DNA of 38,691 nucleotides, taken from Sinorhizobium fredii USDA 257. Lineage in GTDB: Bacteria > Pseudomonadota > Alphaproteobacteria > Rhizobiales > Rhizobiaceae. Below are positions 3,299 to 20,710 of this stretch, in pieces. How positions within the stretch are numbered: position 1 is the stretch's first letter; every line of letters begins with the position of its first letter. The notes under the pieces were generated by a model, which did no database searches, had not been told where the DNA came from, and saw only the letters and a list, made by a program, of their open reading frames with translations. The translations under genes were made by a program, and so were the position numbers. Location: assembly GCF_000265205.3 (NCBI RefSeq), contig NT_187152.1, forward strand, positions 1 through 38,691, given 5' to 3'.

Positions 3299-3415
3299 TC
3301 AGAAAATCGGTTCCTCCGCTCGCCGCCTCCGGCGGTCGCTCACGCGATCCTTGACCCGGCCCGATCCTCACGACCCCGGGCGTCATCTTTCACACTATCC
3401 AAGGAGATGACGACG

Positions 3416-3583: not shown

Positions 3584-3664
3584 GGGGGGCGTTTGCCCTC
3601 GCGCCTGGGCCGGCACGCCGGATCGACCGGCGCGTCGACCCGGGGCTCCGCTTCGTACCAGTGA

Positions 3665-3973: not shown

Positions 3974-4018
3974 GGCGTAAGAATCGCCCGTCCCGGCTTT
4001 CGCGTCCAACGACACTTA

Positions 4019-4228: not shown

Positions 4229-4332
4229 GCTCCCCGTCGGTTGCGTGAATGACATCGATCATGTTCTTGCTTTGATCCCACGGTGCGAATAGACTCTCAG
4301 GAACCTGACAGTCTCTCGCCGAGGAGCCCGTC

Positions 4333-4728
4333 ATGTCGATAGAGCCTCAAAGCGCTCAACGCGAAACCGGCGCGACGATCCGAAGCGGAACTTTCCGCGC
4401 GCTTCGGTTCATCGTCAGGCTTCCGTTCGCGATCGCCTTCGGCGTCGTCAGGGCGGCGGTTTACAGCGCGTGGTATCTCGCCTTCTATATCCTTTGCATG
4501 TTCCGCCCGTTCACAGGTTTCATGATGCTCACGGCGATCGTCATGGTGCCGATGTCGATCGTCGTCTACGCCCATCCCGAAGCGGCGAACGGCATGCCCT
4601 TCTGGGCGTTCGGTCTGATGGCGCTCGGGCTCGTTGCCTTTGCGATCGGCTATACGATTTTCCTCGACTGGTTCACGCCGCCTGGCGCGGAGGACCCGTT
4701 CGCCCGGTATCGCCGTTCCGATCGATAG
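4333..4728 (+). CDS. Small inner-membrane protein, unknown function
   Basis: A 131-residue protein with about three hydrophobic spans (residues 30-57, 62-80 and 90-112) and a hydrophilic, Arg-rich N-terminus and C-terminus. GAGGAG lies 10 bases before the ATG. It is convergent with traG, the two stops being 30 bases apart. I recognise no domain; similar proteins sit beside traG on other rhizobial plasmids, but a role in transfer is unproven. Confidence 0.7.
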   Translation: MSIEPQSAQRETGATIRSGTFRALRFIVRLPFAIAFGVVRAAVYSAWYLAFYILCMFRPFTGFMMLTAIVMVPMSIVVYAHPEAANGMPFWAFGLMALGLVAFAIGYTIFLDWFTPPGAEDPFARYRRSDR

Positions 4729-4758
4729 GGCTTCTCCCAATGTGAGGCTGGCGGCTCA

Positions 4759-6678
4759 TCACGGGATCGGCTTGACGAAGCGATTGGCCTTCGCGGCCTC
4801 GTTCATGTCCTTCCGCCGGAAGTAGATTGCCCGACCGCAGCGGATCGGGCTGTGGCCCTGAACGATGATGATCTGCTCGTCTTTTCGCATCGATTGGGTG
4901 ATCTCGTGCGGCATGATCAGCGGCCGGCGTTGGAAGTTGACGCTCTCGGATTTGCGCGATGCGCTGTTCTTCGTGTCCCAGCCGATGTTGCGGGAGCTTC
5001 CCTTCACCTCCACCGTCATCTCGCCGCACTGCGCCGAAACATTGCGCGCCGTGTCGAGCGCCTTGATCGCGGCATAGGAGGCGAAGGCGCAGCCGTCGAT
5101 CCACGACGTCGCGCCATCCTTCCCGAAATGCCGCTCCAACTGGCCGACCGACTGGTACATCAGCATCATGGAAATGCCGTACTTGCGGCCGCGATCGCGC
5201 GCCTCCTCGAGTACCCGCATGTAGCCGAGGAGATCGACCTCATCGAGCATGAACAGCGCCCGGCGCTTGAAGCCGCCATCGGCCTGGACCATGGCGTTGA
5301 TCAGCGAGCCGATGATGACGCGGCCGATCCCCGGATAGGAGCGCAGGATCGATGCCGGGATGTTGAGGAACACGTCCTTGTTGCCCGAGACGATATCGCT
5401 CGACTTGAACGCATTACCGCAGACGAGCGCGGCGTAGCTGTCGAGCGAGAGCCATTGTGTGTCTTTCGACGCCGTCGAATAGACGCCGGAGAAGGTCTGC
5501 TCGGTCATGTTGGTGAAGACGCCGAGCGTCTCGCGGATGAACGCGGACGCGGAATGCTCCTGAATGTCGCGCAGCATCGCCAGCACCGAGGGCTCCGGCT
5601 CGGACACGATCTGCCGGAGACTGCGTAAGTTTCGCCGGCCGGCATATTCGGGCGACAGCATCACATGGGTGAGCAGGCCGGTCAGGAGATTGTGCGCCTG
5701 GTTTTGGAAATAGGAGCCGGTCGAGCTTTCGAAGCGTATACTTTCCGACAAAAGCATGTGGGCAATGCCGACGATGTCCTCTTCCTTTTGCCGTGAGTGC
5801 TCGATGCCATCGAGCACGTTGAAGCCCATGATCGGGTTCGTCGGATCAAGCACCATCACCTCGCGGCCGAGCACGCGGGTTCGGTGCTCGACCACCATGG
5901 GCGCGACCTCGGTGGAAGGATCGAGGCAGATCAGCGGCCCGGTATAACGCAGCGCCGTCGGCACCACATTGCTCGTCGTCTTGTATCCACCCGACCCGGC
6001 AAAGAAGAGCATATGCGTGGAATCGAAGTCTTGGCGGTAGGTCAGCAACGGGGTCTTGCCGCCTTTCCCCCATGCGGCAGGATCGTTCGGATCGAAGGGC
6101 AGTTCATGGACGATGTCCTTGTCGACGCGGTAGCGCTCGCCGACCACGATCTCGCCGTCCGGCGGAAACAGCTTTCCCGCCGCCGACATCGGCAGCCAGT
6201 CCGCGTCCCCGAAGGTTCCGAGCTTGGCGCGCTTCACCGGTTCGGACACGACGGTGGAAATACGCGCGGCGATCGCCACCGCGATGAAGCCTACGACCGC
6301 GCCGACGACAGCGACCATGTCGAGATAGGACAGTGCCCGGTCCCATGATAGCGCGCCGCTCTCCACGGATGGGGCGAGCCGGCCGAATTCACGGACCGCG
6401 TAGAAGCCGGCGACCGTCAGAAAACAGGCGAGGCCTGCCATCGCGACCGGCCTTCGCCGGTGCAATGGCAAGGCCCAAACGGCCAAGAGGCCGGCGAGCG
6501 GCCCGAACAAAAGCGCCGGCACCGGCGAGACCCGCAGGAACCAGTATTGCGTTTTCCCCGACATGCCTTCGGCAAGAGCCTGCCAGCGCCAGCCGACGAC
6601 ATAGACGGCAAAGGCGGTGACGGCGACGGGCACCAGAACGAGCAACAGGCTCGGATGCGGTTTTGCCTTCAGTGCCAT
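4759..6678 (-). CDS. traG: Type IV coupling protein TraG (VirD4 family)
   Basis: A 639-residue coupling protein, normal for Ti-type TraG. Four hydrophobic spans in residues 10-145 anchor it in the inner membrane. The cytoplasmic ATPase shows Walker A GSGGYKT (228-234) and Walker B FMLDE (476-480), followed by the family's RGRKYGISMMLMYQS stretch. It recruits the TraA-DNA complex to the mating pore and drives DNA export by ATP hydrolysis. Its start overlaps the traD stop by ten bases, so traC-traD-traG form one operon divergent from traA, as on Ti plasmids. No mating-pore genes are in this window, so the pore must be encoded elsewhere. Confidence 0.95.
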   Translation of the reverse strand: MALKAKPHPSLLLVLVPVAVTAFAVYVVGWRWQALAEGMSGKTQYWFLRVSPVPALLFGPLAGLLAVWALPLHRRRPVAMAGLACFLTVAGFYAVREFGRLAPSVESGALSWDRALSYLDMVAVVGAVVGFIAVAIAARISTVVSEPVKRAKLGTFGDADWLPMSAAGKLFPPDGEIVVGERYRVDKDIVHELPFDPNDPAAWGKGGKTPLLTYRQDFDSTHMLFFAGSGGYKTTSNVVPTALRYTGPLICLDPSTEVAPMVVEHRTRVLGREVMVLDPTNPIMGFNVLDGIEHSRQKEEDIVGIAHMLLSESIRFESSTGSYFQNQAHNLLTGLLTHVMLSPEYAGRRNLRSLRQIVSEPEPSVLAMLRDIQEHSASAFIRETLGVFTNMTEQTFSGVYSTASKDTQWLSLDSYAALVCGNAFKSSDIVSGNKDVFLNIPASILRSYPGIGRVIIGSLINAMVQADGGFKRRALFMLDEVDLLGYMRVLEEARDRGRKYGISMMLMYQSVGQLERHFGKDGATSWIDGCAFASYAAIKALDTARNVSAQCGEMTVEVKGSSRNIGWDTKNSASRKSESVNFQRRPLIMPHEITQSMRKDEQIIIVQGHSPIRCGRAIYFRRKDMNEAAKANRFVKPIP

Positions 6679-6908
6679 TCCGGCGCCTCCGCGATGCCGG
6701 ATGATCCCGCATCCAGCGCGGGAGCCTTGAAGGCTTCCTCGCCGATATCGCGCAGCCGCCGATGCTCGGCAGAGCCGGGCGCGACGCTTGCCAGTTCGAT
6801 GAGGCCGCCGAGCAGAAACGCCCGGTCGGCGTTCGACAGTCCCGCCCTGACGACGATGCCGCCAAGCAGGAATTTCTCGCGGGCCTCCTTTTTGCGATCA
6901 GCCGTCAT
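6669..6908 (-). CDS. traD: Conjugal transfer protein TraD
   Basis: A 79-residue protein, MTADRKKEAREKFLLGG..., with the central motif LSNADRAFLLGGLIELA that marks Ti-type TraD. It overlaps traC by 11 bases and traG by 10. TraD is a small accessory protein of the relaxosome region whose exact role is not settled. The start at 6908 was chosen because it matches the usual TraD length; a longer frame exists upstream but lies inside traC. Confidence 0.85.
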   Translation of the reverse strand: MTADRKKEAREKFLLGGIVVRAGLSNADRAFLLGGLIELASVAPGSAEHRRLRDIGEEAFKAPALDAGSSGIAEAPEWH

Positions 6909-7185
6909 GAGAAACCTCCGCCGTCGTTCCAGACCCGCCATTTGGCGGTCGACGCGGCGAAGCAGTTGCGCCAGCAGTCCCCTTCTTTTCCCCTTTGCGA
7001 AATCGCGCGGCGATCTCTTCGAAGACCGCGTCGAGCTCCTCGTCGGCGATCTCCATCTCCGCCAAACCTGATTTTGTCGCGGCGCGTGCAAACCGTTCGG
7101 CGGATTTTACTATCAGCGTTCGTCTGCGCTCGCGCAGCTTTTCGATCTGGGCGTCGATATCGGAAATCGATGATTTTGCGGCCAT
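6898..7185 (-). CDS. traC: Conjugal transfer protein TraC
   Basis: A 95-residue protein beginning MAAKSSISDIDAQIEKLRERRRTL, a basic coiled-coil-like helix typical of Ti-type TraC, which helps assemble the relaxosome at oriT. It is the first gene of the traC-traD-traG operon; the oriT lies in the 224-base gap between it and traA. AGGA lies about 7 bases before the start. The C-terminus is low-complexity. Confidence 0.88.
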   Translation of the reverse strand: MAAKSSISDIDAQIEKLRERRRTLIVKSAERFARAATKSGLAEMEIADEELDAVFEEIAARFRKGEKKGTAGATASPRRPPNGGSGTTAEVSHDG

Positions 7186-7231
7186 TCGGGTATGTCCTTT
7201 CCTGTTCGAGCAATCTGATCGGCGTCGATTA

Positions 7232-7253
7232 TACTATCTGGAAAATGATAGTA
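7232..7253. promoter_or_regulatory. AT-rich inverted repeat between traC and traA
   Basis: TACTATC (7232-7238) is repeated inverted as GATAGTA (7247-7253) around TGGAAAAT, in the only AT-rich patch of the divergent tra promoter region. It is a plausible operator for a transfer regulator. It does not look like the 18-bp tra box bound by TraR. Confidence 0.5.
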
Positions 7254-7354
7254 AACTAGGCTAGTGTGTATCATCCCGAAAACGTCGCAGCCGGAAAGCC
7301 GGCCGATGGCCGTCTTCCGGAGAAGCGGTATCGGCCCTTCGGTCCGATCGGTTT

Positions 7355-7385
7355 GAGGGCGCAATATACGTCGCTGGCGCGACGT
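7355..7385. other. oriT: Origin of transfer (oriT), Ti/RSF1010-like
   Basis: GAGGGCGCAATATACG (7355-7370) is followed by the inverted repeat ACGTCGC (7368-7374) / GCGACGT (7379-7385). From memory this closely matches the Ti-plasmid oriT core, whose GGGCGCA nick region also resembles RSF1010. It lies 25 bases before the traA start and in the traC-traA gap, exactly where Ti-type oriTs sit. TraA would nick within or beside GGGCGCA; the exact base is not shown here. Confidence 0.9.
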
Positions 7386-7409
7386 GCTCGGAGAGGTCTG
7401 GAGACGGTC

Positions 7410-8855
7410 GTGGCGATCATGTTCGTCAGAGCGCAGGTGATCAGCAGGGGAGCGGGGCGAAGCATCGTCTCGGCCGCCGCCTATCGCCATCGCGCCCGGA
7501 TGATGGACGAGCAAGCCGGCACGTCCTTCAGCTACAGGGGTGGGGCCTCTGAACTGGTGCATGAGGAACTGGCGCTGCCGGACCAGATCCCGGGCTGGCT
7601 GAAGGCGGCGATCGACCGACAATCCGTCGCCAAGGCGAGCGAGGCGCTCTGGAATGCGGTGGAGTCTCACGAGACACGAGCGGACGCGCAGCTTGCCCGG
7701 GAGCTGATCATCGCGCTGCCCGAAGAACTGACCCGGGCGGAGAACATCGCCCTGGTGCGCGAGTTCATCCGGGACAATTTGACGTCCAAAGGCATGGTCG
7801 CGGACTGGGTCTATCACGACAAGGACGGCAATCCGCATATCCATTTGATGACGACGCTCAGGCCCCTGACGGAGGAGGGGTTCGGGCCGAAGAAGGTGGC
7901 GGTGCTTGGCGAAGACGGCGAGCCGTTGCGTGTCGTCACGCCGGACCGGCCGAACGGAAAGATCGTCTACCAGCTCTGGGCCGGCGATAAGGAAACCATG
8001 AAGGCATGGAAGATCGCCTGGGCGGAAACCGCCAATCGGCATCTTGCGCTTGCCGGGCATGAGATCCGGCTCGACGGCCGCTCCTATGCCGAGCAGGGCC
8101 TTCACGGCATCGCACAGAAACATCTCGGGCCGGAGAAGGCGGCGCTCGCGCGCAAGGGCGTCGAAATGTATTTCGCGCCGGCCGATCTTGCGCGCCGACA
8201 GGAGATGGCCGACCGGCTGATCGCCGATCCCGAGCTTCTGCTGAAGCAGCTCGGCAGCGAACGCTCCACCTTCGAAGAGAGGGATATCGCCAAGGCGCTG
8301 CATCGCTACGTCGACGATCCAGTGGACTTCGTCAATATCCGCGCGCGGCTTATGGCCTCGGACGATCTGGTGCTGCTGAAGCCGCAGGAGGTTGACGCGC
8401 AGACTGGCAGGGCGTCGGAGCCGGCGGTCTTCACCACGCGAGAGATCCTGCGCATCGAATATGACATGGCGCAGTCGGCGCAGGCCCTGTCGGAGCGCAA
8501 GGGCTTTGGCGTCTCCACGAAACAAGTTGCGGCTGCAATCCGAAACGTCGAAACGGCCGATCCGGAAGAGCCATTCAAGCTTCACGCGGAACAGGTCGAT
8601 GCCGTCCGTCACGTCACCGGCGACAGTGGCATGGCCGCTGTGGTCGGTCTTGCCGGCGCGGGTAAGTCGACCCTGCTTGCTGCCGCGCGCGTCGCCTGGG
8701 AAAGCGAGGACCGGCGGGTGATCGGTGCGGCGCTTGCCGGCAAGGCGGCCGAAGGGTTGGAGGACAGTTCCGGCATCAGGTCGCGCACGCTGGCTTCCTG
8801 GGAACTGGCGTGGGCCGGGGGCGTGAACAGCTCGATCGGGGCGATGTGCTGGTGA
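7410..8855 (+). CDS. traA: TraA relaxase, N-terminal part (frameshifted gene)
   Basis: Relaxase part of Ti-type TraA. The GTG at 7410 starts VAIMFVRAQVISRGAGRS, as in this family, with GGAG 6-9 bases before it. Tyr25 (SAAAYRH) is the likely catalytic tyrosine, and His136, His143 and His145 in HDKDGNPHIHLM form the metal site. Walker A GLAGAGKST (about 413-421) begins the helicase domain. The frame is lost at the five-G run 8817-8821 and ends at 8855; one more G would join it to the frame that continues to 12028, giving 1540 codons in all, a normal full length. Either TraA is inactive, or this is a sequencing error or a -1 slip. Confidence 0.92.
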   Translation: MAIMFVRAQVISRGAGRSIVSAAAYRHRARMMDEQAGTSFSYRGGASELVHEELALPDQIPGWLKAAIDRQSVAKASEALWNAVESHETRADAQLARELIIALPEELTRAENIALVREFIRDNLTSKGMVADWVYHDKDGNPHIHLMTTLRPLTEEGFGPKKVAVLGEDGEPLRVVTPDRPNGKIVYQLWAGDKETMKAWKIAWAETANRHLALAGHEIRLDGRSYAEQGLHGIAQKHLGPEKAALARKGVEMYFAPADLARRQEMADRLIADPELLLKQLGSERSTFEERDIAKALHRYVDDPVDFVNIRARLMASDDLVLLKPQEVDAQTGRASEPAVFTTREILRIEYDMAQSAQALSERKGFGVSTKQVAAAIRNVETADPEEPFKLHAEQVDAVRHVTGDSGMAAVVGLAGAGKSTLLAAARVAWESEDRRVIGAALAGKAAEGLEDSSGIRSRTLASWELAWAGGVNSSIGAMCW

Positions 8856-11800
8856 TCGACGAGGCCGGCATGATCTCCTCCCAGCAGATGGCCCGCGTCC
8901 TGAAGATCGCCCAAGAGGCGCAGGCGAAGGTTGTTCTGGTCGGTGACGCCATGCAGCTGCAGCCTATCCAGGCGGGCGCGGCCTTCCGGGCGATCACCGA
9001 GCGGATCGGGTTCGCGGAACTTGCCGGTGTGCGCCGCCAGCGCGAGCAGTGGGCGCGCGATGCATCCCGTCTCTTCGCCCGCGGCAAAGTCGAAGAGGGC
9101 CTTGATGCCTACGCGCAGCAGGGCCACATTGTAGAGACCGAAACCCGTGCCGAGATCGTCGACCGCATCGTTTCCGATTGGACCGATGCCCGCCGTGACC
9201 TGCTTCAGAAATCCGCCGCGGGCGAACATCCGGGCCGGCTTCGCGGCGAAGAGCTGCTTGTTCTCGCCCACACCAACCAGGATGTTCGGAAGCTCAACGA
9301 ATCCCTGCGCAAGGTCATGATCGACGAGGGCGCACTGACTGCTGCGCGGGAATTCCAGACGGCGCGTGGGTCTCGTGAGTTCGCCGCCGGCGACCGGATC
9401 ATCTTCCTCGAAAACGCCCGCTTCATCGAACCGCGGGCACGGCGGCTTGGGCCCCAATACGTCAAGAATGGCATGCTCGGCACGGTCGTTTCGACCGGCG
9501 ACAAACGCGGCTGTGCGCTGCTGACGGTGCGCCTTGACAACGGCCGGGATGTTGTCATCAGCGAGGACAGCTATCGCAATATCGATCATGGCTATGCTGC
9601 GACCATCCATAAGTCTCAAGGGTCGACCGTCGACCGGACCTTCGTGCTCGCCACCGGCATGATGGATCAGCATCTGACCTATGTGGCGATGACCCGCCAT
9701 CGCCACCGCGCCGATCTCTATGTGGCGAAAGAGGACTTCGAGGTGAGGCCGGAGTGGGGGAGGAAGCCGCGCGTCGATCATGCCGCCGGCGTCATCGGGG
9801 AGTTGGTTGAAACTGGTGAGGCGAAATTCCGGCCCCAGGAGAGGCAAGCGAAGGAAAGCCCCTACGCCGATGTGAGGACCGACGACGGAACCGTCCATCG
9901 ACTTTGGGGCGTGAGTCTGCCGAAGGCGCTTGAGGAGGGCAGCGTCTCGACGGGCGATACCGTCACGCTCCGCAAGGACGGTGTCGAGAAGGTCATTGTG
10001 AAGATTCCCGTCACCGACGAGGAAACAGGCGAGAAGCGTCTCGAGGAACGTGAGGTCGAGCGCAATGTCTGGACCGCGAACCGAGTCGAAACCGCCGATG
10101 CGCGCCAGGAGAGGATCAAGCGGGAAAGGCATCGGCTGGAACTGTTCAAGCAGCTTGTCGAGCGCCTTGGGCGATCCGGCGCCAAGACGACGACGCTCGA
10201 TTTCGCGAGCGAGGAAGTCTATCAAGCGCACGCCCGCGATTTCGCGCGGCGGCGTGGTATCGACACGCTCGCCGAGGTCGCGGCCGGGATGGAGGAGGGT
10301 GTTTCCCGGCGGCTGGCGTGGATTGCGGAAAAGCGTGGGCAGGTGGCGAAGCTTTGGGAGCGGGCGAGCGTTGCGCTCGGCTTTGCGATCGAGCGCGAAC
10401 GGCGTGTCTCGTATAACGAGGAACGGACCGCATCCTTTTCGGCGGGAATCCCGTTGGTTGGGAAATATCTGATGCCGCCCACCACGAAATTCTCCCGCAG
10501 TGTCGAGGAGGATGCACGTCTTGCTCAGCTCTCCTCGGAGCGGTGGAAGGAGCGAGAGGCCGTCCTGCGCCCAGTGCTGGCGAAAATCTATCTCGACCCA
10601 GATGGCGCGCTGTCGGCGCTGAATGCACTGGCATCGGACACCGCCATCGAGCCACGCAAGCTCGCCGAAAATCTCGGGTCTGTGCCAGACCGCCTGGGCC
10701 GTCTGCGGGGATCCAACCTGATGGTCGATGGCCGCGCCGCGCGTGACGACCGCACCGCGGCCACGGCTGCGGTGTCGGAATTGCTACCTCTGGCGCGCGC
10801 TCATTCGACCGAGTTCCGCAGGCAGGCGGAGCGCTTCGGTATCCGCGAGCAGCAGCGGCGCGCGCATATGTCATTGTCGGTTCCCGCGCTCTCGAAAACG
10901 GCGATGGCGCGTCTGGTCGAAATCGAGGCGGTCTGCGACCGCGGCGGGGCCGATGCCTACAAGACGGCCTTCGCCTATGCCGTCGAGGACCGCTTGCTGG
11001 TCCAGGAGGTCAAGGCCGTCAATGAGGCGCTGACCGCACGCTTCGGCTGGAGCGCCTTCACCGCGAAAGCGGATGTAGTCGCCGAGCGCAATATGTTCGA
11101 ACGCATGCCGGAGGATATTCCCCCCGAGCGCCGCGAGAAGCTCGCCCGCCTGTTCGCCGTCATCAGGCGCTTTGTCGAGGAACAGCATCTTGCCGAAAGA
11201 CAGGATCGGTCGAAGATCGTTGCCGGCGCCAGTGTCGAGTGGGGGAAGGAGACGATGGCCGTGCTTCCAATGCTTCCAGCTGTCACGGAGTTCAAGACGA
11301 CGGTCGCCGATGAAGCGAAGGAGCGAGCGCTCGCCGCTCCTCACTACGGACACCACCGCGCCGCCCTCGTTGAGACGGCAACACGCGTCTGGCGAGATCC
11401 AGCAGACGCGATCGGCAACATCGAGGAGCTGGTCGTGAAGGGCTTTGCCAGTGAGCGGATCGCGGCGGCCGTTAGCAACGATCCCGCCGCCTACGGTGCG
11501 CTACGCGGCTCCGACCGCATCATGGACAAGCTGCTTACCACAGGACGCGAGCGAAAAGAGGCATTGCAGGCGGTGCCGGAAGTGGCAAGCCGTGTCCGCT
11601 CGCTCGGCGCGTCTTATGCCAGTGCCGTCGATGCCGAGACCCAGGCCATCGCGGAAGAGCGACGGCGGATGGCGATCGCCATTCCCGGGCTGTCGCAAGC
11701 GGCCGAGGACGCGCTCAAGCGACTGGCGGCGGAGATAAAGAAGAAGGACGGGAAGCTCGACGTCGCCGCGGGCTCGCTCGATGCGCGCATCCGCCAGGAA

Positions 11801-12028
11801 TTCGCCGGGGTCAGCCGGGCGCTTGATGAGCGCTTCGGCAGAAACGCCATCCTGCGCGGTGAGAAGGACGTCATCAATCGCGTGTCGCCGGCCCAGCGCC
11901 GCGCCTTCGAGGCGATGCGAGATCGGCTGCAGGTCTTGCAGCAGACGGTTCGCCTGCAGAGCAGTCAGGAGATCATTTCGGAGCGTCAGCGGCGCGTCAT
12001 TGATCGCGCCCGCGGTGTCACCCGATGA
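8810..12028 (+). CDS. traA: TraA helicase and C-terminal part (frameshifted gene)
   Basis: Continuation of TraA in the -1 frame. It resumes at GREQLDRGDVLVIDEAGM, which holds helicase Walker B (VLVIDEAGM), followed by VLVGDAMQLQPI and the RecD-type motif HGYAATIHKSQGSTVDRTFV with THRHR-like arginines. The last 600 residues are helical. The stretch DPAAYGALRGSDRIMDKL looks like the BID-type secretion domain known in alphaproteobacterial relaxases; this is my pattern reading, not a profile match. TraA nicks oriT, stays covalently on the strand and unwinds it. As a separate frame it lacks the relaxase and helicase Walker A. Confidence 0.9.
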   Translation: MGRGREQLDRGDVLVIDEAGMISSQQMARVLKIAQEAQAKVVLVGDAMQLQPIQAGAAFRAITERIGFAELAGVRRQREQWARDASRLFARGKVEEGLDAYAQQGHIVETETRAEIVDRIVSDWTDARRDLLQKSAAGEHPGRLRGEELLVLAHTNQDVRKLNESLRKVMIDEGALTAAREFQTARGSREFAAGDRIIFLENARFIEPRARRLGPQYVKNGMLGTVVSTGDKRGCALLTVRLDNGRDVVISEDSYRNIDHGYAATIHKSQGSTVDRTFVLATGMMDQHLTYVAMTRHRHRADLYVAKEDFEVRPEWGRKPRVDHAAGVIGELVETGEAKFRPQERQAKESPYADVRTDDGTVHRLWGVSLPKALEEGSVSTGDTVTLRKDGVEKVIVKIPVTDEETGEKRLEEREVERNVWTANRVETADARQERIKRERHRLELFKQLVERLGRSGAKTTTLDFASEEVYQAHARDFARRRGIDTLAEVAAGMEEGVSRRLAWIAEKRGQVAKLWERASVALGFAIERERRVSYNEERTASFSAGIPLVGKYLMPPTTKFSRSVEEDARLAQLSSERWKEREAVLRPVLAKIYLDPDGALSALNALASDTAIEPRKLAENLGSVPDRLGRLRGSNLMVDGRAARDDRTAATAAVSELLPLARAHSTEFRRQAERFGIREQQRRAHMSLSVPALSKTAMARLVEIEAVCDRGGADAYKTAFAYAVEDRLLVQEVKAVNEALTARFGWSAFTAKADVVAERNMFERMPEDIPPERREKLARLFAVIRRFVEEQHLAERQDRSKIVAGASVEWGKETMAVLPMLPAVTEFKTTVADEAKERALAAPHYGHHRAALVETATRVWRDPADAIGNIEELVVKGFASERIAAAVSNDPAAYGALRGSDRIMDKLLTTGRERKEALQAVPEVASRVRSLGASYASAVDAETQAIAEERRRMAIAIPGLSQAAEDALKRLAAEIKKKDGKLDVAAGSLDARIRQEFAGVSRALDERFGRNAILRGEKDVINRVSPAQRRAFEAMRDRLQVLQQTVRLQSSQEIISERQRRVIDRARGVTR

Positions 12029-12058
12029 GGATATTCAAGAAAGCAGAAGGAGAAACAA

Positions 12059-12328
12059 ATGCCTGAACCGGAAACCTCCTACGACGCGATCGTCCGCGCC
12101 GAGATCGCCATCGAGATCGTCAACCAGGCGCGCGCCATCGTCACGGCCCGCGTCTACGAGCTTGAAGACAAGGAGCCCGGCGCGGCAGAGGAACTGCGCC
12201 GGCGCCGGCGGGAGCTCATTGAACTGCAGCAGAGCATCCGCGCCGGCGACCGCGATGCAATCGAAAACCTCATCGCGCTCTGGGGTCCGCGCGTCCAGGA
12301 CGAGGCCCGCTTCTGGGCGGAATTCTGA
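12059..12328 (+). CDS. Small protein preceding the zeta toxin (putative antitoxin)
   Basis: An 89-residue, strongly charged, helical protein beginning MPEPETSYDAIVRAEIAIEI and rich in Arg/Glu in the middle. AGAAGGAG precedes the ATG by 6 bases. It lies 30 bases after traA and two bases before the zeta-toxin start, so all three are probably one transcript. Position and size suit an antitoxin, but I see no known epsilon-antitoxin motif; it could equally be a chaperone for a secreted protein, like VbhA-type partners. Confidence 0.75.
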   Translation: MPEPETSYDAIVRAEIAIEIVNQARAIVTARVYELEDKEPGAAEELRRRRRELIELQQSIRAGDRDAIENLIALWGPRVQDEARFWAEF

Positions 12329-12330
12329 CA

Positions 12331-14805
12331 ATGGTGGCGGAGGCATCCGGCCCGCTCTCGCCGGAGAGGAACGAGAGTATTTTCCGCAACGACATTCTGC
12401 CCGATTATCTGCCGGAGACGATGCGGCCAGCAGAGCGCCCGCGGCTCATCCTGCTCGGCGGACAGCCGGGCGCGGGCAAGACGGCGGTCCTGATCGCGAG
12501 CCATGCGGAGCTCGAGCAATACGGATCGACAATCCGCATCGTCGGCGACGATCTGCGCTCCTATCACCCGCAGTTCCTTGCCTTCCAGCGGCAAGATCCC
12601 GAGACAGCGTCACAGTTTACTCAAGGTGATGCTGGTCGCTGGACGGAGAAGCTGCTGGCCGCCGCCGCGGAGCGAAAGGTCAACATCGTCTTCGAGACCA
12701 CGATGCGGACCCCGGAGAACGTCACCCGCGTGATCGGGGTGGCGCGTGATGCCGGCTATGACGTCGAAGCCCGTGCCGTCGCGGTCAACCCGCGCCTCAG
12801 CTGGCAGGGCAATAACTATCGGTTCGAGGAGATGTTGCGTTTGGGCGACGCGGCGCGAATTCCGCCGCAGCACGTCCATGACGCCGCCGTCACCGGGCTT
12901 CGGGTCAGCCTGGACAAGCTGGAGAGCGAGCGCCTGGTGGATCGCGTGGAAGTGCGGACACGCGGCGGCAGGATCCTCTACGACAATGAGATGCGGGACG
13001 GGGATTGGTCGCGCGCGGTCGGTGCGAGGCAGGCGCTGGAAGCGGAGCAGTCTCGACCGATGACACGTCCTGAGCTCCAAAGCTTTGCCGACGACTGGGA
13101 CTATGTGGTCAGCCGGATGGAAGAGCGAAACGCCCCGGACGATCGGATTGCCGCGGTGAGGACCCGCGCCGTCGAGGATGTGAACTATCTGCTCACGCAA
13201 CGCCGCGCCGCCGACGGCGACGAGGGTTCTCGGCGGGGGCGGACGATTTTCCAGAGCCAGGCCGATGGGCTGGGTCTGTTCGTGGAACTCTATGACAACG
13301 CGGTGCGCGACGCCGAGCGCCGGCCCGCTGGAAACATCGAAGCCCATGCGTCCGGCCGTCTTGCGCAGACCTACATGGCTTTGAAGCTGGTCGAGGCTGC
13401 TCGCGATCTCGGCCTTCTGCCGGAGGACGGGAAATTCGTCGCGACGCGCGCCATGGTCCAGGACAAGCGCGGAACCCAAGAGTTTCCGGCGGCGCACCGT
13501 CTGCCGGCCGATCTTGCCGTGGAAACGCCGGACGGCGCGCGTCGGCGGCTCACGGATCATTTTGCAGTCGTGCTCAATCGTGTCGCCGTCGATCGCGAGG
13601 TGTTCAGCCGAACAGATCGCTTATCGCGTATGGCCAATGTCATGGACTCCTGGCTCGAAGCCGCCGGAATGCGCAAAACGCTCGATCGAGCTGCCAACGC
13701 GGTCGCGACCGGCGGAATGTCGGCCGACGCCGCGATGACAGGGGTCATTGAACCGGGTTATGCGGCGGCAATTGCGCTGGCCCGGCGCCGCCTTGACCGG
13801 AACTTCGCAATCGCCGAGCGCGCCGTCATCGCCACCGCGATCATCGATGAGAAGGGGGAGCCGTTTCGCGCCATGCGGGACGATCTTCGGCTACGAACGG
13901 CCGATCTCGCCAACCGGGCGCGAGCGAAAGCCATGATGAAGGCGGTTCTGGCGGAGACGGCGCGGCATGGTCATCTTGATCCGGAACAGCGCCGAGCAGC
14001 AGATGAGTTTGTCCGCGGGATTGCCGAGAACGAACGCAGTCACGGTGTGCGTCGTGCGCCGTTGCAGGATCCGACTGCCACGCAATCCGGTGCCCTCGTG
14101 CCAGCGCGGCAACTGCCCGACCTAACCGAGCCGGAGGTCGCCGATCGCCTGCGCGCGTCGTCACGCCTGGCCGACAAGCGCGCCGAGATCGAGAACCTGT
14201 CGCGGCTGGTGTTCGGCAGCAGCCAAGCGGTTTCCGCAGCTGTCGACCGGATCACCGATGCGCGAAGCGGTGCGGCCGCCGGCACTGATGTTCGTGCGGG
14301 CGGCCTTGGCGACATGGCCGGGGAGGGGCGGAAACGGTTGCGGGGTCCGAGCCCTGAGCGCCAGACGGCGGAGGCACATGCGCCGCGGCTTGCGACAGCC
14401 CTTGCCGATTATGGTCTGGCGGTGGATTTCGAGCGGCACCAGATCGTGACACAGCATCGCGAGGAGCAAGCGCGGCAACGGATGGAAATTCCACGACCGT
14501 CAGAAGGGCTATCGAAAGTGCTGAACGCCGAAGGTCACGAGCAGGTCCGTCGACTGAATGCCGAGCCAACGCTGCGCCGCGAGCTTGAGACCGTGACGCT
14601 CGCGATCACCAAACGGCTCTCTCCAGCAGAGAAAGCAGACCTGAAGGGAGGCAATGTCGTCGGCCTCGCGTCGTCGCTTGGAGTAAGCCATGAGCAGGCC
14701 GCTTCGCTCCGGCTTGTCCACGAGCGCGCCAGGGCGCTGCAGGGCAGGTCGCTGCGACAGAGCCGGGAAATCGCACGGGCAAACCAGCTGGATATTCGAT
14801 CCTGA
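12331..14805 (+). CDS. Large zeta-toxin family protein with long C-terminal extension
   Basis: An 824-residue protein, about three times the size of a classic zeta toxin. The kinase domain is in the first 250 residues: Walker A GGQPGAGKT (43-51), then RIVGDDLRSYHPQF and VFETTMRTPENV, the usual substrate-site acids and loop. Zeta kinases phosphorylate UDP-N-acetylglucosamine and block wall synthesis. The remaining 570 residues are helical; near 600-680 a stretch (LVFGSSQAVSAAVDRITDA) could be a BID-like secretion domain, comparable to the TraA tail. The gene follows traA and its small partner. It may serve plasmid addiction, or be sent to the recipient through the conjugation channel. The first role is conventional, the second is inference. 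Confidence 0.88.
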   Translation: MVAEASGPLSPERNESIFRNDILPDYLPETMRPAERPRLILLGGQPGAGKTAVLIASHAELEQYGSTIRIVGDDLRSYHPQFLAFQRQDPETASQFTQGDAGRWTEKLLAAAAERKVNIVFETTMRTPENVTRVIGVARDAGYDVEARAVAVNPRLSWQGNNYRFEEMLRLGDAARIPPQHVHDAAVTGLRVSLDKLESERLVDRVEVRTRGGRILYDNEMRDGDWSRAVGARQALEAEQSRPMTRPELQSFADDWDYVVSRMEERNAPDDRIAAVRTRAVEDVNYLLTQRRAADGDEGSRRGRTIFQSQADGLGLFVELYDNAVRDAERRPAGNIEAHASGRLAQTYMALKLVEAARDLGLLPEDGKFVATRAMVQDKRGTQEFPAAHRLPADLAVETPDGARRRLTDHFAVVLNRVAVDREVFSRTDRLSRMANVMDSWLEAAGMRKTLDRAANAVATGGMSADAAMTGVIEPGYAAAIALARRRLDRNFAIAERAVIATAIIDEKGEPFRAMRDDLRLRTADLANRARAKAMMKAVLAETARHGHLDPEQRRAADEFVRGIAENERSHGVRRAPLQDPTATQSGALVPARQLPDLTEPEVADRLRASSRLADKRAEIENLSRLVFGSSQAVSAAVDRITDARSGAAAGTDVRAGGLGDMAGEGRKRLRGPSPERQTAEAHAPRLATALADYGLAVDFERHQIVTQHREEQARQRMEIPRPSEGLSKVLNAEGHEQVRRLNAEPTLRRELETVTLAITKRLSPAEKADLKGGNVVGLASSLGVSHEQAASLRLVHERARALQGRSLRQSREIARANQLDIRS

Positions 14806-14839
14806 CGGTCTGAAGGCTGGCTCGACAAGGTCGGCCGGG

Positions 14840-15172
14840 CTATCGTCCGCCCGGCCAGTTTTGCCGATTTTCAAGGCGCTCGCGGATCGCTCTGAAGGGC
14901 ACGCTGCCAGCGGGCTGCCACTCGACGGCTGCATCCGGAACTGTCGTGATGGTCGCCAGGCTTCCTTGCAACAGCGTCCGGATGCTGGAGAAGATGACGA
15001 AGTCCTCAGCTTCCACCCGGAAGTGCAGCGCTTCATCGGTCGCTCTCAGGATTGCGCGTGCGGCGCCAAAGTCGAGAAGCTTGTCGGTGCTGTGGGCGCC
15101 GATCGACCGGCAATAGGCGCTAGATCGGGCGCAGACGTTCTCAGCGAGGCACTCTGCGTGTGGGGTCCGCAC
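14840..15172 (-). CDS. Conserved hypothetical protein, DUF2218-like
   Basis: A 110-residue protein starting (GTG) MRTPHAECLAENVCARS and containing GAARAILRATDEALHFRVEAED. This pattern resembles DUF2218, small proteins of unknown function. GAGGGG precedes the GTG by 3-8 bases. It is convergent with the zeta-toxin gene, the stops being 35 bases apart. I am fairly sure the frame is coding because its codon use is balanced and the family-like core is clear, but the assignment is tentative. Confidence 0.5.
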   Translation of the reverse strand: MRTPHAECLAENVCARSSAYCRSIGAHSTDKLLDFGAARAILRATDEALHFRVEAEDFVIFSSIRTLLQGSLATITTVPDAAVEWQPAGSVPFRAIRERLENRQNWPGGR

Positions 15173-15251
15173 GAACCCCTCAGCGATATGTCTGTACAGG
15201 AGCCACCTCCATGACCTGGGTTCCTATTGGGATACGACTGTTCGGTTTGGT

Positions 15252-15416
15252 TCACACCGACAGCGGTGCGGGTGCGCGCGCGCGCCGGTTGAGCGGCTCG
15301 GCCACCTTGATCTTGCGGCGCATAGGCGACGCTCGTAACCTCTCCCGTCGCCCTGCATTGATCCCACGCACGACTGCATCCGCAGTCGCCAGTTGCGCCG
15401 CGATATGAGGATCCAT
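15252..15416 (-). CDS. Possible small protein or C-terminal remnant
   Basis: A 54-residue frame, MDPHIAAQLATADAVVRGINAGRRERLRASPMRRKIKVAEPL and on to a Pro/Arg-rich tail. Upstream in the same frame SAAEPAVSLGEL also looks coding, and a stop lies just before it, so this may be the end of a decayed longer gene. No family is recognised. The rest of 15173-15810 shows no convincing gene. Confidence 0.3.
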   Translation of the reverse strand: MDPHIAAQLATADAVVRGINAGRRERLRASPMRRKIKVAEPLNRRARAPAPLSV

Positions 15417-15810
15417 CAACTCACCAAGGGAAACCGCAGGTTCCGCCGCACTTTCTTCTTTGTGTCCTGTCCCAACCGAAGGTCACGCGATTTCTGTATA
15501 AGAAATACCGTCGGAGGCTAACGCACTCAGAGCCGTGCGCAGTCTTGAAGAATTGAATCCCCTGCTATGCGACCGCACCGAAGTTGATAAGCTGTCGGTC
15601 TCTACAGGACGCCGAAGCGCTGACGATGACAAAGTTGGCATGGTTGAGTGCCTCACCGATCGCAAAAGAATCCCTCCTTCCAGCAGTTGCACGCTTCATC
15701 TTGGAAGCGCCACAAAGTTGCGTTCAACAGAAATGGCGGTAGATTGACGGCAGAGGCACGATAGGAAACGAACTCTAGCGAAGCGAAACGAAATCAGGGC
15801 CCGTAAGCCG

Positions 15811-16122
15811 TTGATAAAGAATGGAAAGTTTTTTCTTCCTCCGTCGAAAGACGGGAGCGATTTCAAAGAGCTGTTCAAACAACTAGCTGCGGCGGGGGCG
15901 GGTCGGCCGTTGGGAAGTGATGGGTTTCCCGCAGGCCCATGGACGCCCGAGCTTCTTGCAGAGGCGATTTCACAGATCGATTCCAACCGGATCGGGGTCG
16001 ATCTGCGAACGGTGCAGCTTTGGTTTCAAGAGAACGACAAGGGAATTAGCACCGCCAACATTCGTTGGCTGGCAAGGATTTTGGGTGCGATGATCCGGCG
16101 GCCACAAGCGAATGGCAGATAG
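15811..16122 (+). CDS. rcgA: RcgA N-terminal part (frameshifted gene)
   Basis: N-terminal piece of RcgA. From a TTG start it reads MIKNGKFFLPPSKDGSDFK, then a small helix-turn-helix-like domain with GVDLRTVQLWFQENDKGIS and NIRWLARILG. At the T-run 16079-16082 the frame is lost and stops at 16122. One extra T would give LARIFGCDDPAATSEWQ and join the frame that runs to 17423, for 538 codons in all. Sequence error and true inactivation cannot be told apart here. An ATG or GTG start was not found upstream in frame. Confidence 0.7.
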   Translation: MIKNGKFFLPPSKDGSDFKELFKQLAAAGAGRPLGSDGFPAGPWTPELLAEAISQIDSNRIGVDLRTVQLWFQENDKGISTANIRWLARILGAMIRRPQANGR

Positions 16123-17423
16123 AACTTAGCGCGGCGCAATCTCGGTTAACCGCCAAGAGGCGAGATTCAAAGAAAGCGGAAAACAGCGATGCGCAGTACG
16201 CTCCAGATCTGGAGCGTACTGCGACCGCCGATGATGAGACGGAGTCTCCGTCGGAGCTGACACAGGATACGCACGCCCAGGAGCCGCGTCGGCCTTTCAG
16301 CTTGGCGAGGAGATCAGAGGCGCTTTTTAGTCGCGGATCTCCCTTGGATTTACCGGCGTCGGTATTTGCCGGTGCCACCGCTCTTGGGTTTTTGTCTTAT
16401 ATTACGGGGATTCACAACGCTACTTACGGCCGTGCGGATGGCATTGTTAAGCAGGTCGGATTTCTTTGGGCACCAAATTGGACATTCGTCTTCATGGTGC
16501 TCCTCCCACTGTTTTTTGCGTTCGCAATTGAGCTGCTGGTCTTCTGGAAATATGAAGGGCGCTTAAAGCTTGTAGCGCAGGCCGACCGGATGGAAAGCGA
16601 CGACGCTTGGGAGCGCAACGTTGAAGCTTCGTCGTACACATATTGGGCGGTCTTTTTCATCTGTGTATTGTTCGCCGGTCTATTTCAATGGGTCGGCGTC
16701 TGCTTGCTCCCGTTGATCAACGGCGGTGGCAACTATGCGGTCGATTGGGGCAAGCTGGCACTTGTGCGCCCTGAAGTCATATCAGTGCCGACGTCGATTG
16801 TATTCACGGGACTCGCTTACCTCTACATGTGTCTGTGCTTCTATCTGTTCTTCGCAGGCCTCATTTTGCTTCATACGTTGGTTCACGACCTTTGGAAAAT
16901 TGGTGAGGCATCGAAGAACTGGGCGGGAGTGGATTATCCATACGAAGTCAATGAAGTCAGCCTGCGGGTGATGCGCGGAATTTTTCGATGCACTGTTTTG
17001 GGGATTCTGATCGCCATATGCATGAAGGCCCAAAGCTCTTACCTAACGTCGAATGGAAAGAATATTGTGGCTTGGTTGGTCGGCGATATGTTTTCAGCCT
17101 TCCAGGTACGCAACAATGTGAGCGACGGGGTTCGCTATAGAATGCCGACGCATTACAGCAGCCTACTTATCGCTATCTCGACCTGTGTTGTTTTTCTGTA
17201 CGGTTCCATCCGTTTAGGTGTCGGACGTCGGTGTCATTTTCCTTTGTGGAGGATGTCGGCGGTCGTAGCGTTACTCTTTGCTAGCTACCTGCTGATCGAC
17301 GTATTCGCTGGCTTTTCAATCCTTATGGGCGTTGGAGTGCTGCTTGCGATGTACGGCCTGTTTGATCCAGGGGTTGGGCAATGGCGAGCGAGTGAGTTAG
17401 GAAACAATCAGAGTGTATCATAG
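16065..17423 (+). CDS. rcgA: RcgA membrane part, putative transporter (frameshifted gene)
   Basis: The main part of RcgA, with a soluble stretch (about 100 residues) and then seven or eight membrane spans, including FVFMVLLPLFFAFAIELLVF, YWAVFFICVLFAGLFQWVG and a final pair around VVALLFASYLLIDVFAGFS. RcgA and RcgR are reported to affect conjugative transfer of rhizobial plasmids and RcgA is annotated as a putative transporter. The TTG at 16065 is only the first possible start in this frame; the real protein most likely begins at 15811 with a frameshift at 16079-16082. Its stop overlaps the rcgR start by 11 bases. Confidence 0.8.
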   Translation: MAGKDFGCDDPAATSEWQIELSAAQSRLTAKRRDSKKAENSDAQYAPDLERTATADDETESPSELTQDTHAQEPRRPFSLARRSEALFSRGSPLDLPASVFAGATALGFLSYITGIHNATYGRADGIVKQVGFLWAPNWTFVFMVLLPLFFAFAIELLVFWKYEGRLKLVAQADRMESDDAWERNVEASSYTYWAVFFICVLFAGLFQWVGVCLLPLINGGGNYAVDWGKLALVRPEVISVPTSIVFTGLAYLYMCLCFYLFFAGLILLHTLVHDLWKIGEASKNWAGVDYPYEVNEVSLRVMRGIFRCTVLGILIAICMKAQSSYLTSNGKNIVAWLVGDMFSAFQVRNNVSDGVRYRMPTHYSSLLIAISTCVVFLYGSIRLGVGRRCHFPLWRMSAVVALLFASYLLIDVFAGFSILMGVGVLLAMYGLFDPGVGQWRASELGNNQSVS

Positions 17424-18438
17424 TTGGCTTGACCGTTGGGATGAGAGGCGGGCGCGACGCGGCGAGGAAGGGAAGCGAAGAACGGGTCTCATCCTTGACG
17501 CGGAACGCGCGTTTCCAGACGCGAAGAACGTAGCGACGATCGAGGAGTTTTGTGTTCTTGCGGACCAGGCCGTGACTGATCCGGCCTATTTCGATGAGCC
17601 GGGCGGGAGTAACCAGGGTTTTGAAAGGCAAGACGGGTGGCTCAAATTTCCATCTGACATTTCCACTGACGTCGAAGACAACAACGTCGTCTGGGCAAAA
17701 ATCACAGAAAGCGGGTCGCTTGAACAGGCATTGGTGATTTTTCACCATTGGAATGCAGCCGTGCGAAATCGTCAGATTGCCAAATTTTTCTCACGGCGTG
17801 GCATCACGGTTGTTGAGATTGCTATGCCTTATCATTTCGAGCGCCGACGTCCGGGCTCCTCGCACGCCGATTATATGCTCAGTGCGAATCTCGGTCGAAC
17901 GATCCAAGCTGTAAGGCAGGCAGTATGGGATGGGCGAAAACTCATACGTTGGTTGAAGAGCGAAGGCTATCGAGAGATTTCGGTTCTCGGTATGAGCTTG
18001 GGCTCCTGGGTCGCGGGGATCATTGCGGCGCACGACTCGGCTGTGTCTAAAGCCTCGCTGTTTCTGACCGCGGGGAGTCTTGCGGATATGGTTTGGACGG
18101 GTCGCGCGACACGATTGATACGCGATAGCCTTGAGCCTGAGATTGAGCTGAGCAATCTAAGAAGGGCTTGGGGTCCACTTAACATGGAGAATTACGCGCA
18201 TCGTTTGGCACAGCGTGATCTCGACCTTCAGGTTGTGTTGGCTAAGAGAGACAAAGTGGTCTTGCCAGAGCTGTCGGAGAGATTCATGCAGAGGCTGAAG
18301 GACGCCGGAGCTAAGCCAAATATTTTAGAATTAAACTGTGGCCACTATTCGCTTGCCATGCCGCCTTACATTTTACTGGCCGGTTTGAGCTTGAAGCGGT
18401 TTCTATCGTGTGCTGACAAACCGGCCCCTGAACATTAA
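17413..18438 (+). CDS. rcgR: RcgR family alpha/beta hydrolase, putative lactone hydrolase
   Basis: A 341-residue alpha/beta hydrolase. The nucleophile elbow is GMSLG (Ser195), with Asp280 in AKRDKVV and His311 in NCGHYSLAMPP completing a plausible triad; HHWNAAVRNRQI (about 111-122) fits the oxyanion region. The family is named for rhizobial plasmid transfer and is annotated as a putative quorum-lactone hydrolase, so it may degrade acyl-homoserine lactones that control transfer; activity is not proven by the sequence. The GTG start overlaps rcgA by 11 bases, showing co-translation. The stop lies one base before a GGGGCACC sequence that may be a Tn3-type end, so the extreme C-terminus could be altered. 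Confidence 0.85.
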   Translation: MYHSWLDRWDERRARRGEEGKRRTGLILDAERAFPDAKNVATIEEFCVLADQAVTDPAYFDEPGGSNQGFERQDGWLKFPSDISTDVEDNNVVWAKITESGSLEQALVIFHHWNAAVRNRQIAKFFSRRGITVVEIAMPYHFERRRPGSSHADYMLSANLGRTIQAVRQAVWDGRKLIRWLKSEGYREISVLGMSLGSWVAGIIAAHDSAVSKASLFLTAGSLADMVWTGRATRLIRDSLEPEIELSNLRRAWGPLNMENYAHRLAQRDLDLQVVLAKRDKVVLPELSERFMQRLKDAGAKPNILELNCGHYSLAMPPYILLAGLSLKRFLSCADKPAPEH

Positions 18439-18521
18439 AGGGGCACCGATATACGATAGGCGGATCGAAGGGCGAACGGGATGGCGCCGAGGCCGGTTTT
18501 GTCAAGAGCAGGCTTGTCTTC

Positions 18522-18670
18522 CTAATCGCCGGTCAGGTTCACCTGCTCCCAGGTGAGCGGGCGACAGGCTGGAAAGCAGGTGCTCGGGTACAGCTTTGCC
18601 CGTTCGCGCAGGGCATCGACCACGCGGCCGGTATCGATCGTGTTCCAGTGAAGGTAGCTCCTTGGGCTGC
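18522..18670 (-). pseudogene. tnpA: Tn3-family transposase, C-terminal remnant
   Basis: On the minus strand WNTIDTGRVVDALRER (frame 1), KAVPEHLLSSLSPAH (frame 2) and TWEQVNLTGD (frame 1) together spell the typical C-terminus of Tn3-family TnpA, ending at the TAG 18522-18524. Two compensating frameshifts and the loss of everything upstream show it is dead. A GGGGCACCGATA sequence at 18440 could be the left terminal repeat. The rest of the transposon was lost or replaced by the element that starts at 18737. Confidence 0.75.
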
Positions 18671-18811
18671 AATTTGATCGACGTGTGTAATGATATAACT
18701 GTCACAGCTATTTAAAGATGAGACAAAGTAGTCAACTTAGAAATGCGACACCATCTTATTCCTTAGTACTGCGTTTGCAAGTTGCTATATTTACCAAGTA
18801 CGAAGGCGCAA

Positions 18812-18860
18812 GCCGCCGACCGGGTGGAGCTGGTCAGGGTTGCATAGCCCGGTCGGCGGC
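18812..18860. terminator. 13-bp perfect inverted repeat downstream of the ISNCY transposase
   Basis: GCCGCCGACCGGG (18812-18824) pairs perfectly with CCCGGTCGGCGGC (18848-18860) around a 23-base loop, just past the transposase stop, and could end its transcript. Confidence 0.5.
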
Positions 18861-18904
18861 GGATGGCTCCAGCTGCAAGATAAACTTTAGCTTGGACATC
18901 CCGA

Positions 18905-20332
18905 TCACTCCGCCGCTTTCAGCTGCGCAAGGGCTTGCTGGCGTCGGGCGATGACCACCGGATCCTTGGTAAAATCCGTCTTGCGGCCAGGCTTCGTGCC
19001 GCGCTTTTGGTAGCCATTGCTCTGACTGCCGTCGCGAATGCCGAACATATGGTCCGTCTGGCCGGTGCGACGCGGCCCGCCCTTGCTGCGCTGTTGCTCT
19101 CGTCCGGCCTGCATCCCGGCCACCAGCGCCAGCATGTCATCAAGGCGCTTGTTCTCAACCACCTCGGAGCGGTGCACCGAGCGCAGCGTGTCGAAGGTTC
19201 TGTAGGGCAGGGACGTCCCCTCATGGGTGATCTCGAGGCGACCATCGGGATAGTCGCAGACAATGACCTTCTGGCCGGCCAGCGCCGTGGCGAAATCCGT
19301 CGGATCGAGGATGAACATCACCTTGTCATAGCGCAGCGTCAGCGACTGCGACAGCTTGCGGATCTCCTTGCGGCACATGGCGCCATCGAGGTTCTCATGC
19401 GCGGCAAACGGCCGATGCATGTCCTTCGGATTGCGCGGCGCCTTGCCAAAGCGACGATTGAAGTCGGCCATGAACGCCGGCGCATAGGCATTGGCCGCCG
19501 CGATCGTGTCGATGCCGCGCAGCCGCAGTTCCTTGACGAGGCGATCCTGCAGCGTCTGGTTGGCGCGCTCGACGCGGCCTTTGGCCTGCGGGGTATTGGC
19601 GCAGATGATGTCGATGTTGAGTTCATAAAGGGCCCGGCCGAACTGCGTCAGGCCACTGGTTCTGTCCTTCTTGGAAGCATGGGTGGTGCGGAAGATGCCA
19701 TGCTTGTCGCTGTAGAAGGCGATCGGCTTGCCCCATTGCTGCAGGTAGGCCTTCGTCGCGTGCAGATAGTCGAAGGTGCTCTCCGAGGCAGCAAAGCGTA
19801 AGTGCAACAGCTTGCCGGTGGCATCGTCGATGTAGACGAGCAGGGCGCATTTGGGACCGCGGTTCTCGAACCACCAATGAAGCGAGCCATCGATCTGGAC
19901 CAGTTCGCCGAAACAATCGCGCCGGCCGCGCGGCTGGAAAACCCGCTTCTTGCGCTCGCGTCGCGACACCCAGATGCCGGCTTCCATCATCCACTGACGC
20001 AGCGTCTCCTTGCTGACGGAAATCCGGTGGCGTTCGAGCAGCTTCTCGGCGGCCAACGTCGGTCCGAAATCCACGTAATGCTCACGCACCAGGTCGAGCA
20101 CCAGGTTGCGGAAATCCTCGCTGTGGCACCGGTTGCTCGGCCGGCCGCGCTTCTTCGAGACGAGACCGTCGGCGCCGACCAGGTCATAGGCCTGCAACAG
20201 CCGATGCACCTGACTGCGACTGAGACGAAGCAACTCGGCCGCCTGGACGACGCTCAGGCTACCACCGCGAATCCGCTGGATCAGTTCAAGACGATGCAAT
20301 TCCTTCTGCGACATGGTGATCAAACAAGACAT
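18905..20332 (-). CDS. ISNCY family transposase
   Basis: A 475-residue transposase. An N-terminal helix-turn-helix (LSVVQAAELLRLSRSQVHRLLQAY) is followed by an rve-type DDE core: ELVQIDGSLHWWFENRG, then YSDKHGIFR and ICANTPQAKGRVERANQTLQ, which hold the catalytic Asp, Asp and Glu. The C-terminal 100 residues are basic and low-complexity. The frame is complete, so the element may still move. Placement in the ISNCY group is from overall pattern recognition. Confidence 0.85.
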   Translation of the reverse strand: MSCLITMSQKELHRLELIQRIRGGSLSVVQAAELLRLSRSQVHRLLQAYDLVGADGLVSKKRGRPSNRCHSEDFRNLVLDLVREHYVDFGPTLAAEKLLERHRISVSKETLRQWMMEAGIWVSRRERKKRVFQPRGRRDCFGELVQIDGSLHWWFENRGPKCALLVYIDDATGKLLHLRFAASESTFDYLHATKAYLQQWGKPIAFYSDKHGIFRTTHASKKDRTSGLTQFGRALYELNIDIICANTPQAKGRVERANQTLQDRLVKELRLRGIDTIAAANAYAPAFMADFNRRFGKAPRNPKDMHRPFAAHENLDGAMCRKEIRKLSQSLTLRYDKVMFILDPTDFATALAGQKVIVCDYPDGRLEITHEGTSLPYRTFDTLRSVHRSEVVENKRLDDMLALVAGMQAGREQQRSKGGPRRTGQTDHMFGIRDGSQSNGYQKRGTKPGRKTDFTKDPVVIARRQQALAQLKAAE

Positions 20333-20710
20333 GACGACTCCGAACGCTCATGGTCTCAACCACGCTTCACGTCGCCAGTCTTCCTTCCAAACGTTGACGT
20401 TTGACCAGCCTCCCAAGAGGCGACGACTGTCGCATCTCTAACTGGCTCATATGTCGCATCTCTAAAATGCCGCTACAATAACATATCGCATAAGCTAAAT
20501 TATGGAACACCGGCGTTCCACGCACCGGCGACCGGCACGGAGTGATCGGCCTTTACGAACCAAGGCCCGCGCGGTGCTGGCTCGAACCCGGTTACGGGCA
20601 GCAGTGGAGACCAGATGGGCGAACGCCCGGTTTCCGGAAGATCGAAGAGTTTACACATCAAGCGCTCAGCTCGACGGAGCCGGTCGCGCGCTCCGGTGAT
20701 CCGCGCGGTG

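Follow-up and report, generated by a model that had tools for sequence, protein, structure and literature searches.

The closest described relatives of the locus reported here are the PezT/Zeta-BID toxins of class tBIDalpha, for which the accessible part of the review literature names Agrobacterium, Chelativorans, Ochrobactrum and Sinorhizobium as carriers, with a Shinella protein in a figure legend (PMC5675462; PMC6509941). The class was proposed in 2017-2019, and its translocation is called "not clear" in the available text of the 2019 review. Two other systems are relevant: VbhT, the FIC-BID toxin of Bartonella plasmid pVbh, whose transfer has been demonstrated with a Cre reporter and whose BID is described, in the part of the source at hand, as virtually identical to that of its own relaxase (PMC5675462); and the Bartonella Beps, most of which, according to the accessible text, have a FIC domain (or additional BIDs), and which are delivered into animal cells (PMC6509941). 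Here, we analyse a window of 38,691 nucleotides from Sinorhizobium fredii USDA 257 (contig C3, 1-38691, in a genome of 7.03 Mb and 20 contigs), in which the gene for a toxin with zeta kinase, middle (MID) and BID domains lies behind the relaxase gene traA and a small partner gene. Judging from sequence, we think it probable that the two genes form a toxin-antitoxin pair linked to conjugation machinery, with the toxin sent to recipient cells. That this kind of system is already in print, and that the locus is a further member of it, is well supported; what we add is the MID, the finding that Dot/Icm loci also encode it, and the distribution of the partner family.

Open reading frame (ORF), family and homolog searches identify the toxin as an 824-residue zeta-MID-BID protein (12331..14805, + strand). 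The partner ORF (12059-12328) is also on the + strand and is separated from the toxin ORF by two bases; both follow the traA stop at 12028, directly behind traA as the initial annotation had placed them. A zeta/PezT kinase domain occupies residues about 31-220 (12421..12990, + strand; PF06414 E 4.7e-48), and some 600 residues of toxin lie C-terminal to it, bearing out the earlier description of a zeta kinase with a long tail. Among PDB sequences, the domain matches 2p5t (E 8.4e-24) and 1gvn (E 8.6e-17). When the printed 1gvn alignment was counted by hand and the letters then checked, zeta residues K46, D67, E100, E116, T118, R158 and R171, which we take to be the catalytic residues of zeta, aligned to toxin K50, D73, E106, E122, T124, R164 and R176; the P-loop kinase domain, the Walker A lysine and the catalytic Asp, Glu and Arg positions of the zeta/PezT family are all present. 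Pfam and NCBIfam scans at E <= 1 found no FIC domain in the toxin, and the PADLOC defence-system match, to PbeC at E 0.034, is not meaningful. In one relative, from Aureimonas sp. Leaf427 (L018:10001-12372), the toxin gene shifts frame in the tail, near residue 706.

The BID-like signal that the initial annotation read in the toxin tail is recovered by profiles, PDB sequences and predicted fold alike, as a BID domain at residues about 598-722 (14122..14496, + strand), a putative type IV secretion system (T4SS) signal. The toxin protein matches BID family PF17841 at E 7.6e-5 (23.4 bits, under the curated cut-off of 29.5) and NCBIfam NF033856 at E 4.2e-10 (39.6 bits, under the curated cut-off of 45), and in a genome search with PF17841 the toxin frame scores 29.6 against the cut-off of 29.5. 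We nonetheless consider the predicted BID fold a firm call, because the domain has matches among PDB sequences (E 1.2e-15 by phmmer; E 1.1e-23 for the toxin-tail profile with Bep 4nps) and because of the modelled structure. BID is the last recognised domain of the toxin and is followed by about 100 residues that are found in Beps too, a Bep-like post-BID extension with a basic C-terminal end (residues 723-824; 14497..14802, + strand); the alignment reaches residue 559 of 566 in Bep 4nps and, in the predicted fold comparison, residue 554 in 7zbr. The last 12 residues have a net charge of at least +1 in 88 of the 93 homologs longer than 800 aa. Because its tail corresponds to an established type IV secretion signal, the toxin is probably delivered to recipients. 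BID is retained in 111 of the 114 zeta-bearing homologs listed, with the reservation that the query (residues 290-824) included the tail and so favoured BID. Mean pN/pS against 11 relatives, with synonymous change near saturation in many pairs, is 0.19 for zeta, 0.25 for MID, 0.235 for BID, 0.355 for the post-BID segment and 0.57 for the linker at residues 573-596, which marks a domain border.

The TraA tail had likewise been read as BID-bearing, and a genome profile search indeed places two copies there, at 10547..10783 and 11333..11608 (both + strand), the second of which is also matched by the NCBIfam VbhT model (E 1.9e-25); TraA as a whole protein matches BID at E 4.1e-19. The profile search for BID that had been set as a check was thus positive for both tails. 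The assumption that TraA is a single open frame did not hold: traA is split here into two ORFs in different frames that overlap at 8810-8855, with the MobA/MobL relaxase domain and the start of the helicase in the 5' ORF (7266..8855, + strand; ORF list, Pfam/NCBIfam), and the rest of the helicase and the BID-bearing tail in the 3' ORF (8810..12028, + strand). In the relatives whose loci hold both pieces (n=21; start coordinates compared by hand) these are in a single frame, and in one of the 21 (L016) traA shifts frame at another point. The split may be either an assembly error or a real frame shift; intact copies exist. Directly behind traA of Ancylobacter pratisalsi pLGM lies a gene for a 236-aa protein with BID as its sole Pfam domain (PF17841 E 1.6e-8; L057:8983-9693).

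The initial annotation compared the toxin with VbhT, and this comparison stands for the layout, a toxin of a toxin-antitoxin system with a BID beside a relaxase gene, but not for the origin of the tail. The toxin-tail profile matches the TraA terminal region with an hhalign probability of 7% (E 0.0051) and the first-BID region with one of 0.6% (E 0.1), and blastp of the toxin tail against the TraA 3' ORF gives a best E of 0.25. A profile of the TraA terminus (last 372 residues, second BID only) returned a single unrelated row from PDB, at E 0.17. Since the Bep match is strong and both TraA BID regions match poorly, we rejected a VbhT-type origin, in which the toxin BID would be a near copy of that of the neighbouring relaxase. 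By profile and blastp scores, rather than a tree, the toxin BID appears to resemble Bep BIDs more than relaxase BIDs, in line with what has been published on the tBIDalpha class, as far as the available text goes (PMC6509941). This resemblance, and the many plant-associated carriers, would also fit a host-directed effector that reaches plant cells in the way that Beps reach animal cells; however, the dedicated partner and the relaxase linkage suggest bacterial recipients, and some carriers come from activated charcoal, soil or sediment, such that we regard a plant-directed effector as very improbable.

Coupling of the toxin to traA is tight. The toxin lies beside traA in 19/19 genome loci, and the distances of traA tail, partner and toxin correlate with one another (r 0.81-0.92 across 13 loci; 0.90-0.96 across 16 loci) more strongly than those of any of the three correlate with traG (r 0.30-0.34 and 0.63-0.71, respectively). 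The TraA tail is matched in 342 plasmid records and zeta-BID is present in 21, showing that the toxin is an accessory of plasmids with such a TraA tail. Both observations bear on the possibility that a transferred toxin aids conjugation rather than addiction, by arresting recipient growth while the plasmid becomes established or by suppressing defence. A supporting role of co-transferred toxins has been raised, in the part of the source available (PMC5675462), and close linkage to traA would be consistent with it; most plasmids with the same relaxase tail nevertheless do without the toxin, and we consider such a role improbable.

The partner gene (12059..12328, + strand), a probable antitoxin by homolog, neighbourhood and profile searches, encodes 89 residues predicted to form a helical bundle (pLDDT 93) and is charged as well as small, as originally noted (36% K/R/D/E, net charge -6). 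It has 148 homologs, and nearly all of the 120 listed are 89 aa long. The partner is directly upstream of the toxin in 19/19 genome loci (the toxin match being partial in some). On plasmids it occurs in 20 records, all within the 21 zeta-BID records and with the toxin directly downstream by coordinates; the remaining zeta-BID record has a diverged partner (38%). Across 297 genomes of the family, the partner was found in nine; in 14 there was a match to at least part of the toxin, with at most three candidates scored per genome. The seven genomes that show both zeta and BID pieces all contain the partner, and the other seven match a single toxin part. The partner stands without a toxin match in two family genomes, in one case as a 37-residue fragment and in the other (G169; L049:4466-4735) as a gene directly behind traA, with no toxin match in the genome; this orphan may possibly give immunity.

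The partner profile also recognises the immediate upstream neighbour of zeta in Lichenicola (2e-14), Burkholderia (1e-4) and Aeromonas (6e-4) and, weakly, in Sphingobium (0.023; best of 350 shuffles 0.14); these E-values come from a search of 357 sequences, and the four zeta genes examined are from records without a match to the toxin tail. Together with the co-occurrence of partner and toxin, these matches lead us to infer that the partner is likely an antitoxin. The partner profile has no meaningful match in PDB, Foldseek found no match to its predicted fold at E <= 0.001 and none that was informative, and no epsilon chain was among the rows returned, which excludes nothing. A role as a BID- or MID-specific chaperone is less likely, because the partner accompanies MID-less toxins and related genes precede zeta genes in records where the toxin tail has no match. 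Those other plasmids, with a zeta gene and a small upstream gene (partner-like clearly in three of the four examined and weakly in one), are what would be expected of a plain plasmid-addiction pair, and the toxin described here could in principle be another, acting only in the cell that produces it, with its BID tail a remnant of recombination involving other BID genes, or a regulatory or localisation element. We think this unlikely, given the low pN/pS of BID and the post-BID segment relative to the linker (synonymous change being near saturation), the retention of BID among the zeta-bearing homologs (the query bias notwithstanding), and the position beside traA in all 19 genome loci.

We favour transfer of the toxin, by steps that we draw from the families involved. 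In the donor, the partner would act as an antitoxin and hold the kinase off, and the toxin's BID would dock, like the relaxase, on the coupling protein TraG and on the VirB channel, with the toxin passing into the recipient unfolded. There, free of antitoxin, the toxin may phosphorylate UDP-N-acetylglucosamine, as PezT does, or else a related sugar nucleotide, and the cell would be arrested until the incoming plasmid makes the partner. Recipients would in this way be addicted from the moment of transfer, as has been proposed earlier for such toxins in the accessible part of PMC5675462. If the toxin is indeed transferred, recipients would be poisoned or addicted ahead of any plasmid gene expression, and the plasmid could outrun restriction and other defences.

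The toxin tail also contains a separate middle domain, which goes beyond what the initial annotation described. This MID spans about 270 residues between zeta and BID (residues about 301-572; 13231..14046, + strand) and is supported by 45% identity to Dot/Icm-locus proteins and by its low pN/pS. Among the 120 homologs listed, BLAST at 60% coverage finds both zeta and BID in 111, with MID present in 94 of these and absent in 17; six of the other nine have no zeta match and three, perhaps truncated, have no BID. MID is similarly present in 17/21 zeta-BID plasmid records and absent in 4/21. It also occurs in three further plasmid records, in Dot/Icm-type loci with DotI, DotH and DotG, two of which share one accession, leaving two distinct MID proteins; these are 45% identical to the toxin across about 270 residues, and Pfam at E <= 1 finds neither zeta nor BID in either. 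In the Dot/Icm-type loci (L022:5179-7326, L023:4549-7296, L058:7149-9296), the MID proteins are 715-915 aa long, and downstream of their genes lie a gene of about 90 aa and then one whose product, about 1000 aa long, weakly matches an FtsK/TraG P-loop. A search with one Dot/Icm-locus MID protein returned 35 proteins, eight of them toxins and 27 others that, among the four toxin domains, match MID only; Pfam on six of the 27 found DUF6036 in three, one of which also has DUF3991 and Toprim_2, over cut-offs. The accessible text of PMC13293297 applies the label 'Zeta/BID', by partial homology, to a gene that lies close to icmL on linear plasmids of Rhizobiaceae, and the part that this gene has in common with the toxin would be MID, rather than zeta or BID.

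Pfam at E <= 1 finds no family in MID, and no PDB sequence matches it at E <= 10. MID was modelled jointly with BID; the PDB rows for this model fall nearly all on the BID part, and no viral match was found at E <= 0.001. We rejected MID as a widespread domain: its profile matched only the genome's own copy in samples of the class (1/385) and the order (1/397), where at most six candidates per genome were scored and copies may have been missed. We met no description of MID as a domain in open-access full text, weak evidence of absence for a domain that has no name. From its occurrence in toxins of VirB/VirD4 plasmids, in Dot/Icm-locus proteins and in metagenomic DUF6036 nucleotidyltransferase proteins, we tentatively suggest that MID is an undescribed T4SS-cargo domain, although this is doubtful; whether it would provide a second activity for recipients or an adaptor common to two unrelated secretion channels is a guess. 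Either way, MID raises a new question that ties conjugative VirB cargo to Dot/Icm plasmid loci.

Window positions 57-18699 are 99.98% identical to S. fredii plasmid pSF45436d, which is typed as conjugative (MOBQ/MPF_T), encodes a toxin 100% identical to ours, and has a virB operon in which virB1-6 and virB8-11 are annotated or placed and virB7 is unnamed. The plasmid has both traG and a virB operon; in the USDA 257 genome, traG is in the window and a near-identical virB operon is on contig C14 (protein identity 96.6-100%), and C3 and C14 are likely one plasmid. Contig C1 holds a second virB operon of this type (protein identity 62-96%) and a second BID-bearing TraA, and C15 a third VirB4 locus. 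In the window, traG (4759..6678, - strand; NCBIfam TIGR02767 E 0) encodes a Ti-type coupling protein (T4CP), the presumed docking site of the BID signals; traC is at 6898..7185 (- strand; PF07820 E 5.6e-41). Such a Sinorhizobium plasmid, in which a single circle unites the virB operon with traG, traA, partner and toxin, is a convenient test case for transfer. A segment of about 1.8 kb (18700-20477) has no counterpart at this place in pSF45436d and contains an ORF (18905-20332) with helix-turn-helix domains of transposase type. Further along, a - strand ORF at 36644-38389 encodes leucine-rich repeats and a NEL E3-ligase domain (PF14496 E 1.2e-71), presumably the domain combination of NopM-like type III effectors in rhizobia.

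Like the PezT/Zeta-BID proteins of class tBIDalpha, the protein combines a Zeta-type toxin with a C-terminal BID that resembles those of Beps more than those of relaxases, and is encoded beside traA on an alphaproteobacterial conjugative plasmid; the accessible parts of these accounts make no mention of a middle domain between zeta and BID, whereas MID is present here (PMC5675462; PMC6509941). With VbhT it shares a toxin of a toxin-antitoxin system, a terminal BID, and a location next to the relaxase gene on a conjugative plasmid of VirB type, but it has a zeta kinase in place of the FIC AMP-transferase, and its BID is not near-identical to that of the neighbouring relaxase. The kinase domain, the mapped residues and the small gene upstream of the toxin recall the epsilon-zeta and PezAT systems, which are not known to have a BID tail or relaxase linkage. 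Lastly, about 230 residues comprising BID and its C-terminal extension can be aligned to the Bep structures 4nps and 7zbr, and, unlike in Beps, they are joined to a zeta kinase on the conjugative plasmid of a plant symbiont.
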